Origin: Thermoplasmata archaeon
GTDB taxonomy: Archaea; Thermoplasmatota; Thermoplasmata; Thermoplasmatales; Thermoplasmataceae
Direction: 5' to 3'
Length of the DNA stretch: 36,885 nt
Assembly: GCA_021816965.1 (NCBI GenBank)
Contig: JAKAWU010000006.1
Span: forward strand, 1-36,885
Shown: positions 7,245 through 16,285 of the stretch, piece after piece
How the letters are laid out: each line of letters starts with the position of its first letter
How positions within the stretch are numbered: position 1 is the stretch's first letter
Notes under the pieces: model-generated
Databases searched by the model: none
What the model saw: the letters and a program-made list of their open reading frames with translations, nothing else
What the model was told of the DNA's origin: nothing
Position numbers and translations under genes: made by a program

Positions 7245-7704
7245 TTTTCCTATAAACCTCCCATGAAAATCTCAATGCCCATTGATCTCTCTTCTTTTCA
7301 TGTTTCCAACTGAATGTAATGCGGAATTAGCATTTCAGCAATGATTCAGTCACTTTGCATATGGAAAGCTTTATTCATGGGATCAGCATGTTCAATCAAT
7401 GAGTAACATTGTAGATTACGGTCTCCGTGAAGCATATAATTCCATGAAATCCATGGACAAACTTGCGGAAATCGATCCCATGATAAATTGGGAATTATTG
7501 AGGCCCATAGTGAGAGAACTTTACAGGAATGATACAGAGAAAGGCGGAAGGCCCAATATTGATGAGATTGTCATGATAAAGACACTTTTCCTGCAGAGCA
7601 TGTACAACTATTCCGATGAATCCATAGAGAGAGAACTGTACAACCGTATTGACTTCCGGAACTTCCTCCACTATCCGGAAATAATACCTGATTCAAGGTC
7701 AATC
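7245..7704 (+). mobile_element. IS5-like element, 5' portion only
   Basis: The left end TTTTCCTATAAACCTCCCAT begins at 7245. The same terminus recurs at 35031 and, diverged, on the minus strand ending at 23293. A leader of about 150 bp precedes the transposase start at 7399. The element is lost after about 7704; no right end was found. It truncates the ABC ATPase remnant. Confidence 0.7.
7399..7704 (+). pseudogene. IS5-like transposase, N-terminal DUF772 fragment
   Basis: The frame starts MSNIVDYGLREAYNSMKSMD and contains RPNIDEIVMIKTLFLQSMYN, YSDESIERELYNRIDFRNFL and PDSRSI. This is the DUF772 (InsH N-terminal) domain that precedes the DDE catalytic domain. In relatives PDSR(S/T)I leads on to W.FRERL; here that is replaced after residue 102 by unrelated sequence running to a stop at 7815. 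No catalytic residues remain, so it is not functional. Confidence 0.85.
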
Positions 7705-7762
7705 TGTGTATATTATGATCTAAATCACCAGAATTTTTTTACTCTTTTCCCTGAATTATTGT

Positions 7763-8275
7763 TTAGAGGAGAATATACATGTACAATTCATCAAAATACC
7801 TGTTTCCACGCTTGATCGATTTTGGCCGCATACCGTAGTCTATAAAACCGAGATTCCTGTATAGAGAATTGGCTCTCTTATTTGTGGTGAAAACACTCAG
7901 TGTCACGATTTCAAGTTTTCCTCTTGCAGCGTCCAGTGCACCTAAGATAAGTGCTTTTCCTATACCTCTGTCTCTGTATCCCTCCCTGATCGCAATTCCG
8001 AGAACTCCATTGTGTGAGACTTCAGAACCAGGTCTAATTCGGTGAATATCGCATATCCCAACAACTTTTCCATCTTCCACAGCAACCCTCACGAATGCAT
8101 CTCCTTTCATAGTGTTTCTGTAAAGATTTGAAAACCACTCAACTTCACTCTCAAAAGAAGGTTTGTCATGGAAGAATATGATGCCAAATTCTTGGTCTCT
8201 CTTAACTTCTTCATAGTACGAATAATAATTTTCTATAAGATCATTCATATCATTCCATTGAAGTTCTCTTATCAT
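7763..8275 (-). CDS. GNAT-family N-acetyltransferase
   Basis: The protein has 170 residues, typical for a single-domain GNAT. Motif A is visible as VLGIAIREGYRDRGIGKALI (R/Q-x-x-G-x-G/A: RDRGIGKA), which binds the acetyl-CoA pyrophosphate. The C-terminal motif B reads NKRANSLYRNLGF, the usual N..a..lY.k.GF. The substrate cannot be told (protein N-terminus, amino acid or small amine). Start ATG 8275 follows an A/T-rich TATA-like stretch by about 28 nt. It stands alone next to IS debris. Confidence 0.88.
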   Translation of the reverse strand: MIRELQWNDMNDLIENYYSYYEEVKRDQEFGIIFFHDKPSFESEVEWFSNLYRNTMKGDAFVRVAVEDGKVVGICDIHRIRPGSEVSHNGVLGIAIREGYRDRGIGKALILGALDAARGKLEIVTLSVFTTNKRANSLYRNLGFIDYGMRPKSIKRGNRYFDELYMYILL

Positions 8276-13961: not shown

Positions 13962-14238
13962 AATAAATTCTCCGAGATACAAAGTGCAATTGAAACAGAA
14001 TATATTGTAAATTGCTTTATTCACAGCTTCTGTTACACATTTATTATTGATCTGAGCCATGATTTTGGGAAGATATTTTATCTTCCAATGATACATTCTC
14101 CCTAACCCACTTTTCTTCTTCTACAAGAATTTGATTTTGAAATATTTCTGGTTATTGTTATTCGAATTTAGAATACATCTTGCTTATTTCATTAAAAGAC
14201 AACTTAATATTATAATTTAGTATTCTAATTCTTAAAAG
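13962..14238. other. Gene-free gap upstream of the ATPase/TOPRIM pair
   Basis: No ORF of quality, no tRNA-derived direct repeat and no array of repeats is seen. Its right end is the promoter of the ATPase gene. Confidence 0.4.
14209..14217 (+). promoter_or_regulatory. TATA box of the ATPase/TOPRIM operon
   Basis: ATTATAATT is centred 26 nt upstream of ATG 14239, and no Shine-Dalgarno precedes that ATG, so the operon is probably transcribed from the start codon. Confidence 0.58.
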
Positions 14239-15510
14239 ATGATAATCAAAGAAGTTGGAATTGAAAATTTCAAAGGGATCGATTCATTAAAATTCAAACC
14301 AAAACTTCTGAATGTAATTGTAGGTAGAAACAATACTGGAAAAACTTCAATTATAGAGGCCATTGCTATGGCTCTTGACGGAACATTTCTTGATGAGAAT
14401 TATTCGGAATCTCCGACCTCAATAATTAACTACCTGGCGAATTCAGGAGAAATTTCTCTTGCCCTATCTGAAAATCGAAATACCAAACTTGTTTTGAAAT
14501 TCAAGAGAATAGATGAGCATGATCTGTATAAAAATATAGTCAGTAAGACATTGAATGACATTAAAAAAATTCAAGCTGGATCTGAAAAAAAAACAACTTC
14601 AGGAACGATTGATTCTAAAAAGATTAAAAAAGCTATAGATTCAAACGATATTTCTATATTTCAAGATGCAATCGAAGTAATTCTCAAGAATAGGTTTACA
14701 ACAGATATTATTAAAAAATTATTACAAGACTGTGTCTTAGTCAATAATGGAAATGAAGAGTATCTACTATTTGGGAATGATTTCAGATCTTTTGTAAATC
14801 AAATCACTGAAGCAGTTATTGAAAAAATTTATGATAAAAGTGTTGTTAAACAATTAGTATGGTCAACTAATTTTTCCTTGATACACTATTCTACATATTC
14901 ACCAATTTTTCCAAGTCAAAGAAAGAAAAGTATCTATGATTCTACGAAAATGATCTTTGTTAAAAATCCATTGCAAACTTTACAAACTCTATTAATCACG
15001 AAGGAGGGGCATCAGGAATTATCCTTAGAGATAGAAGATATACTCAAAAAAGATGATGTTCTTCCAAACTTAATTAGATTCGATTTTACTGAGTTAGTAT
15101 TTGATACGCCAGAAAGTAGAAAATCTGTCAAATTTAATAGGATGGGGGAAGGCTTCCAAACTCTGGTAGCCATTTTAGCAATTCTAAAATCCAACGGAAA
15201 TGTAAATTCTATTTTTCTGATGGAAGAACCGGAAGTACATATGCACCCCGGATATGTTGGTGAACTAGTAAAGTATTTAGCACAAATATCAAGTTCTCTG
15301 AAGATCCAGTTCTTCATAACAACCCATAGTTATGACTTGATTCAGTCACTCCTTGAAGAGGAAAATCCTGATCTCAAAGAATTTTTGGAAAAAAATCTAT
15401 TATTACTCAGACTAAACAAAGTTAATGACACTATAATAGGAGAAAACATAACATATAAGGATGCAAAGAAGGATAGTTCCGTTCTTCTTCTTGATTTGAG
15501 AGGAATTTGA
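14239..15510 (+). CDS. OLD/AAA15-type ATPase (AriA-like) of a two-gene module
   Basis: The protein has 423 residues. It begins with the RecF/SMC-like strand IIKEVGIENFKGIDSLKF and Walker A VGRNNTGKTSIIEAIAMAL (G29-T36). A charged, lysine-rich coil region (about 90-160) is inserted. The C-terminal lobe carries MGEGFQTLVAILAIL (signature-like; 302-316), Walker B IFLMEEPEVHMHPG (325-338, E329/E330) and FFITTHSYDLI (H363). This is the ATPase half of OLD-family nucleases, but no TOPRIM domain follows within the protein. That domain is in the next gene. Separate ATPase and TOPRIM genes are the layout of PARIS (AriA-AriB). The codon use is visibly more A/T-rich than neighbouring genes, suggesting transfer. 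Confidence 0.85.
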   Translation: MIIKEVGIENFKGIDSLKFKPKLLNVIVGRNNTGKTSIIEAIAMALDGTFLDENYSESPTSIINYLANSGEISLALSENRNTKLVLKFKRIDEHDLYKNIVSKTLNDIKKIQAGSEKKTTSGTIDSKKIKKAIDSNDISIFQDAIEVILKNRFTTDIIKKLLQDCVLVNNGNEEYLLFGNDFRSFVNQITEAVIEKIYDKSVVKQLVWSTNFSLIHYSTYSPIFPSQRKKSIYDSTKMIFVKNPLQTLQTLLITKEGHQELSLEIEDILKKDDVLPNLIRFDFTELVFDTPESRKSVKFNRMGEGFQTLVAILAILKSNGNVNSIFLMEEPEVHMHPGYVGELVKYLAQISSSLKIQFFITTHSYDLIQSLLEEENPDLKEFLEKNLLLLRLNKVNDTIIGENITYKDAKKDSSVLLLDLRGI

Positions 15511-16128
15511 TTGAAGGCGCTCATACTGTTAGAAGGAAATAATGATGGAATATTCCTTAAGGAAATAATACAAAATACCGCTTTTCCTAACATCAGACCA
15601 AATTATTATAAAAATCAGGGAACAAAACCTCAAAAAAAAGTTGAAGAAACTAAACTCCTAAGGAGCTTTTGTAGAAAAGATTGTGAGCATAATTTGCTAA
15701 TAGAAGAAGAGGGAGGAAAAGGCTTTGTCCTGAGTCTTTTTCATAATGTAATTGTTAATTTCTTGATAACCAACAAAAATATTCATTTAACAGTGATATT
15801 TGATCACGATGGAAATGATCCAACGAAGGAAATTGAAAAAATTAACAAAAATCTCCAAGACAAAACTTTTGGAAGAATTGAATTGAAACCAGCTGTTCCA
15901 AAAAAACAAATTATTCCTGGATTATATTCAAGAGAATTTTTTCTAACCATTAACCAAGGAAAATATAATAGAAACTTGACAAGTTTTTCCTTTATCAGTT
16001 TTGATAAATCTTTAGAATGTGAAGTGGCTAAACTCTGCCATAAATCTGAGAGTGAAATAGATGAAAATGACATAAAATTTTTTGCGTCTAAAATAAAATT
16101 CAATGACTTAATTCCCAATTCACCTTAG
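15511..16128 (+). CDS. TOPRIM-domain protein (AriB/DUF4435- or DUF3226-like nuclease candidate)
   Basis: The protein has 205 residues and starts with TTG immediately after the TGA of the ATPase gene (TGATTG), so translation is coupled. The TOPRIM pattern is visible: ALILLEGNNDGIFLKEII supplies E8 on the first strand, and TVIFDHDGNDPTKEIEK supplies D98 and D100 (DxD) after the expected spacing. The C-terminal part (about 120-205) has KKQIIPGLYS and DENDIKFFASKIKF but no further domain I recognise. Such proteins cleave nucleic acid (OLD, or AriB cutting tRNA). The activity here is inferred only. It ends 84 bp before tRNA-Arg. Confidence 0.78.
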   Translation: MKALILLEGNNDGIFLKEIIQNTAFPNIRPNYYKNQGTKPQKKVEETKLLRSFCRKDCEHNLLIEEEGGKGFVLSLFHNVIVNFLITNKNIHLTVIFDHDGNDPTKEIEKINKNLQDKTFGRIELKPAVPKKQIIPGLYSREFFLTINQGKYNRNLTSFSFISFDKSLECEVAKLCHKSESEIDENDIKFFASKIKFNDLIPNSP

Positions 16129-16208: not shown

Positions 16209-16285
16209 TGGCGCCCGAGCCGGGATTTGAACCCGGATCTAAGGCTCCGCAGGCCTTCAGGATATCCAGATTACCCCACTCGGGC
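16209..16285 (-). tRNA. tRNA-Arg (anticodon GCG) with encoded CCA
   Basis: On the minus strand the acceptor GCCCGAG (16285 to 16279) pairs with CTCGGGC (16219 to 16213), then discriminator G (16212) and CCA (16211-16209). The anticodon stem AAGGC/GCCTT encloses CTGCGGA. The T arm is CCGGG-TTCAAAT-CCCGG. It is the only one of the four tRNA genes here with an encoded CCA. It lies just downstream of the ATPase/TOPRIM module, a position typical for integrated islands, though I found no attachment-site repeat. Confidence 0.96.

Follow-up and report, generated by a model that had tools for sequence, protein, structure and literature searches.

In the PARIS system, a ring of ATPase subunits sequesters a TOPRIM nuclease until infection sets it free (PMC11455837, PMC12409363), and the released nuclease, AriB, cuts tRNA-Lys (PMC12409363). 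Bacterial split AAA+TOPRIM_OLD pairs of the AbiL/NetFlax kind, in which an ATPase and a TOPRIM_OLD effector form a bicistron, behave as toxin–antitoxin modules that neutralise in E. coli, and AbiL is an abortive infection system (PMC10440598). The Toprim protein of Retron-Eco2 is an RNase (PMC12405507), while GajA and Cran1 cut DNA (PMC12796447). Cran1, the sole archaeal OLD protein studied, serves the cell cycle rather than defence; it is essential, vertically inherited, and conserved across its order (PMC12796447). A recent phylogeny of OLD proteins recovered class 4, the split class represented by PARIS, from bacteria only (PMC12796447).

Set against that bacterial distribution, the locus under study encodes a split ATPase–TOPRIM pair that occurs patchily through two archaeal classes. 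With this pair one can ask directly whether TOPRIM nucleases serve abortive infection in archaea, and how an ATPase without its nuclease domain controls a separate nuclease. The pair carries a small, sharply conserved DLRG tail that predicts the meeting point of the two subunits. We read the pair, with a probability of roughly 0.68, as a mobile two-gene antiviral module of archaea, akin to abortive infection or toxin–antitoxin systems, in which an ATPase would hold a TOPRIM nuclease in check.

The pair lies in a stretch of 36,885 nucleotides, hereafter the window, and consists of two plus-strand open reading frames, 14239-15510 (423 aa, ATG start) and 15511-16128 (205 aa, TTG start), with zero gap. 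Its features are the following.

14210..14219, plus strand: TATA-like box TTATAATTTA, 20-29 nt 5′ of the ATG, proposed from the sequence
14239..15510, plus strand: subunit A, OLD/AAA_15-type ABC ATPase without a TOPRIM domain, 423 aa
14323..14346, plus strand: Walker A GRNNTGKT, residues 29-36 of A; G29, N31, N32, G34 and K35 invariant in 11 sequences
15142..15156, plus strand: ABC signature-like MGEGF, residues 302-306 of A, where AriA has LSSGE
15223..15234, plus strand: end of Walker B with the catalytic Glu, EEPE, residues 329-332 of A, then VHMHPGY; invariant
15322..15330, plus strand: H-loop THS, residues 362-364 of A; invariant
15493..15504, plus strand: C-terminal DLRG motif of A, in 19/19 intact cassettes; its codons AGAGGA are Shine-Dalgarno-like
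15511..16128, plus strand: subunit B, small TOPRIM-type protein, DUF3226/PDC-M38B-like, 205 aa, TTG start
15532..15534, plus strand: TOPRIM catalytic E8 of B, invariant in 23 sequences and aligned with the OLD TOPRIM Glu
15802..15810, plus strand: TOPRIM DxD of B, D98-H-D100, invariant in 23 sequences
16012..16017, plus strand: L168-E169 of the SLE motif in B, perhaps a third acidic site, located past three inserted beta strands
16209..16285, minus strand: tRNA-Arg(GCG), oriented with its 3′ end towards the pair, 80 bp from the stop of B; a site marker outside the module

The junction reads ...GAT TTG AGA GGA ATT TGA TTG AAG, the stop TGA abutting the start TTG (TGATTG). The AGAGGA that encodes Arg-Gly of DLRG occupies the expected Shine-Dalgarno position for the TTG start of B, which suggests coupled translation of the two subunits, and the placement of the TATA-like box is consistent with a leaderless archaeal transcript for the pair. 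Sigma-70 promoter and terminator scans of the locus returned chance-level results. The GC content of the pair is 0.28-0.32, versus about 0.36-0.40 in the surrounding DNA, and its upstream neighbour is an MFS transporter gene. Genes for aIF2-alpha, S27e, and L44e in a genome of the same family identify the host as an archaeon. The zero spacing, the A/T-richness relative to the neighbours, and the adjoining tRNA gene, all reported in a preliminary description of this DNA, were confirmed by reading coordinates, junction, and composition directly. Elsewhere in the window, 7399-7815 is a transposase fragment (DUF772 domain, 138 aa), and in genome G009 the cassette is preceded, at a distance of 0.3 kb, by a related fragment (L046:5993-6340).

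Subunit A matches AAA_15 across residues 1-368 (E=1.4e-22) and also AAA_21. The OLD-type ABC motifs (Walker A, MGEGF, EEPE, and THS) are nearly all invariant across 11 aligned ATPases, the signature taking the form MG[DE]GF in this family, and A should therefore bind ATP and probably hydrolyses it. Its predicted structure (pLDDT 80) resembles the heads of SMC and Rad50 (Z 19-17 over about 265 residues, rmsd 3-5) as well as PtuA of Septu and retrons (Z 17). Only ~59 residues remain past the THS motif, ending in DLRGI, which leaves no room for a TOPRIM domain; the earlier identification of an AAA15/OLD-type ATPase lacking its own TOPRIM domain thus stands.

The second protein had been proposed to be a TOPRIM protein on the strength of E8 and D98xD100, and profile comparison agrees. 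Across 23 aligned sequences of 187-237 aa, E8, G9, D12, D98, and D100 are invariant, and in hhalign the B profile scored 32.2 against 55 OLD TOPRIM domains with the Glu and DxD in register. The 40 column-shuffled controls had a mean score of 8.9 and reached at most 15.5, and genuine AriB, included as a sensitivity control, scored 28.3 against the same domains. The structure model of B (pLDDT 88.6, pTM 0.84) has an alternating beta/alpha core with E8 after the first strand and the DxD after the fourth, followed by a three-stranded beta insertion (residues 123-164) and a helix that starts with the SLE motif; the C-terminal part, previously unrecognised, is traced in the model to these two elements. 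B is thus TOPRIM-like by profile, while Foldseek with the model retrieved no TOPRIM chain, merely weak and mixed matches. The best meaningful structural match was PH0156 (2p62; 152 aligned residues, rmsd 3.9), at a Z of 7.7, which as a value below 8 is not decisive. A profile of B compared with solved structures gave chance-level matches save for PH0156, a weak match in which the Glu and DxD are in register. L168-E169 is invariant in the nine sequences of the window's class and mostly, if incompletely, kept in those of the methanogen class; SLE may correspond to the later acidic site, which in AriB is SIEN, although the motif is missing from some methanogen-class copies.

The two genes travel together. 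In 19/19 intact pairs, A and B are adjacent and in the same order, with an ATPase ending in DLRG[I/V/T], a recurrence that is more than chance and that bears out the suggestion of a PARIS-style two-gene logic with separate ATPase and TOPRIM genes. Left out of this count were L161, L163, L166, L168, and L169-L171, which are broken, truncated at the ends of contigs, or irregular; assembly errors may account for some of these. The start of B falls anywhere from 41 nt before to 8 nt after the end of the ATPase gene, and 7/8 pairs of family f1 combine zero spacing with a TTG start. DLRG is kept where the junction spacing differs, which argues that it is retained for the protein and not solely for the ribosome site. 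Among 74 OLD-type ATPases fetched for comparison, the tail occurs in two from Methanocorpusculum and is absent from the other 72. The identities of A and B co-vary across pairs (Mantel r=0.905, p=0.0005). In the pair of genome G600, the ATPase (L161:1884-3047) has a degenerate Walker A (GKNNTAKS), reflecting either decay or a sequencing error.

The module looks mobile and patchy in archaea. Within family f1 it was found in 10/77 genomes, intact in eight (G000, G002, G009, G036, G042, G047, G050, and G054) and decayed in two (G020 and G221); it is also present in G380, from another family of the same class, and in Methanocorpusculum and others of a second archaeal class, where 18/232 genomes match the B profile. 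In the decayed copies the damage can affect A or B, with no toxin–antitoxin asymmetry. A comparison of related genomes at the tRNA-Arg, proposed earlier as a check, supports mobility, as does the patchiness of a pair whose universal conservation would, by the preliminary description, have told against that reading: the tRNA-Arg(GCG) site is occupied in G000 and G009 and empty in five congeners (G001, G002, G004, G007, and G010). G004 keeps both flanking genes (79-80% identity) at this site, the MFS stop and the tRNA being just 79 bp apart. G002, of the window's genus, carries its copy elsewhere; this A is just 30% identical to that of the window, compared with 61% for the ABC transporter gene of that genome, and the two copies fall apart in the ATPase tree. 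One copy lies 282 bp from a tRNA-Cys, and some have genes for AbiEii, a ParE-type toxin, Fic, or transposases close by. In G036, an AbiEii-type nucleotidyltransferase (L055:8337-12658; PADLOC 1.4e-97) sits 0.8 kb past the cassette, and a Mutator transposase flanks the opposite side.

At the window site itself there is no adjacent defence gene, and no integrase, flanking direct repeat, or tRNA fragment was found at the ends; integration targeted to the tRNA-Arg was considered and is not supported. Single-sequence searches for B yielded no match in GTDB contigs, plasmids, or phages. Five viral contigs recovered with the ATPase alignment carry generic OLD-type ATPases, none with the DLRG tail. 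The PDC-M38B model found nothing at E 0.001 in 243 genomes of the phylum, a search in which the controls were blank as well.

How might such a pair work? We envisage that A and B are made from one message, the start of B lying directly past the stop of A. Subunit A, a split OLD-type ABC ATPase, would oligomerise, sense infection, and hold B, with its DLRG tail as the proposed docking site. On infection the ATPase would change state and release or activate B, a small putative two-metal TOPRIM nuclease (E8, D98, and D100), which would then arrest the cell, most probably through RNA cleavage, with tRNA the favoured substrate. The sequences themselves document the catalytic motifs of both subunits, their regular pairing and co-variation, the patchy occurrence, and a DLRG tail particular to this split family; what we infer comprises complex formation, docking through DLRG, a role in defence, activation by release, and an RNA substrate. 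Weighing against the reading are the lack of an adjacent defence gene, integrase, or direct repeat at the window site, the Foldseek result for B, the symmetrical decay, and the cell-cycle role of Cran1. A more specific proposal, which we offer tentatively and consider rather less likely than the general one, is that the pairs represent an archaeal split-OLD class uniting a DLRG docking tail with a DUF3226-like TOPRIM tRNase bearing its own beta insertion, sensing virus and arresting translation as a separately evolved counterpart of PARIS.

The choice of RNA over DNA as the target of B is a modest leaning. It is possible, if doubtful, that the pair is instead a split OLD system that cuts DNA in the manner of Gabija, with an ATPase that gates the nicking or endonucleolytic cleavage of DNA: OLD TOPRIM domains give the best alignment with the TOPRIM region of B, the OLD proteins GajA and Cran1 are DNA cutters (PMC12796447), and the fold of A is that of SMC/Rad50 heads. 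Against this, the two TOPRIM effectors studied that are not fused to OLD, AriB and the RT-fused Eco2 protein, both have RNase activity, and RT-Toprim models pick up some of the homologues of B. The pair also differs from Gabija in having no ATPase–TOPRIM fusion and no adjoining GajB helicase gene, its downstream neighbours being the tRNA-Arg and unrelated genes.

A defensive role also has to be weighed against a purely selfish one, in which the two genes form a toxin–antitoxin addiction pair that offers its host no antiviral benefit. The toxin–antitoxin behaviour of split AAA+TOPRIM_OLD pairs in E. coli (PMC10440598) would be in keeping with addiction, as would the ParE-type, AbiEii, or Fic genes adjoining some copies. 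However, tblastn detected no plasmid or virus copies of the pair, and PARIS and AbiL, which share its design, are antiviral; we regard addiction alone as unlikely.

Is the antiviral module that we propose simply PARIS? The gene order, with separate ATPase and TOPRIM genes, is identical, and the top PADLOC match of A is AriA (2.4e-24). The AriA model (PDLC02979) is nonetheless broad rather than specific, and genuine AriA scores 54 bits with it, less than A does. Authentic AriA/AriB pairs served as controls. None of the eight B proteins of the family matched AriB or DUF4435, whereas genuine AriB proteins, as positive controls, scored 1.5e-32 (PADLOC) and 1.7e-19 in the same library; hhalign of B against genuine AriB, whose alignment is thin, gave a probability of 6% or less. 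The nuclease is DUF3226-like in the pair and DUF4435 in AriB. The ATPases differ as well, AriA having an LSSGE signature and ending soon after THS, while A has MGEGF and the DLRG tail. In an ATPase tree built with the tail removed, the 19 cassettes share one branch with L079 (98/97) and AriA falls elsewhere (100/96); support for the deep forks of this tree is weak, and the branch leading to L079 is long. On these comparisons the pair is PARIS-like in design and not PARIS by membership. The earlier suggestion of an archaeal variant of PARIS is accordingly not borne out as a statement of membership, and a genuine PARIS that has diverged in archaea is very improbable. The L079 locus (L079:3998-5931, Desulfurococcales) encodes a split ATPase of 407 aa without DLRG and a 234-aa TOPRIM-like protein with weak matches to PDC-M38B, mad4, and DUF3226.

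Least probable of all is a housekeeping role in the cell cycle or repair after the precedent of Cran1, an essential archaeal OLD protein (PMC12796447), given that the pair was not found in 67/77 family genomes, is decayed in two, occupies differing sites, and is patchy where Cran1 is vertical and conserved order-wide.

Among catalogued systems, the pair is nearest to PDC-M38, a PADLOC candidate that likewise combines an OLD-type ATPase having the same C-terminal tail region with a small TOPRIM-like protein, and both subunits match it. Subunit A matches PDC-M38A end to end (2.6e-21; residues 2-421 to model 4-366/367), and removing its last 53 residues lowers this score from 74.7 to 59.9 bits, a loss of 14.8, while that of AriA barely moves (84.8 to 84.7). 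For B of the window, the PDC-M38B match (8e-5) covers the first half only, ending at residue 116 with the C-terminal half unmatched, and appears too weak for a firm filing; the G380 homologue of B reaches 6.7e-7 over residues 8-170. The literature searched yielded no paper that mentions PDC-M38 by name. Two hallmarks of the split OLD architecture of class 4, OLD-type ATPase motifs and an E/DxD on a separate protein, are present in the pair; for a third, the three-dimensional TOPRIM fold, the model of B is confident but drew no TOPRIM chain from Foldseek. The alternative put forward earlier, an undescribed split-OLD defence type, comes nearer than PARIS, but "undescribed" goes too far, as PDC-M38 already matches both subunits and bacterial split AAA+TOPRIM_OLD pairs have been published.

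Other systems are matched in part. The AbiLi model matches A at 2.6e-20 and all eight family ATPases, at best 1.5e-31; AbiLii, however, is RloB-type, and B has no RloB or AbiLii match. DUF3226 (PF11536), for which PH0156 is a possible solved relative, matches 6/8 B proteins. B of the window aligns over profile positions 2-88 at 20.6 bits, below the cut-off of 27 and with its last 80 residues unmatched, and the G380 homologue exceeds that cut-off at 27.4. The MAD3/MAD4 ATPase and TOPRIM-like models of MADS also match the pair, although the mad4 match is weak for the window (0.022) and no other MADS genes adjoin. Lastly, two small homologues of B, L162:1315-1884 and L172:1489-2184, match RT-Toprim (retron I-C) at about 1e-4, hinting at a shared origin of these two with the retron Toprim effector.
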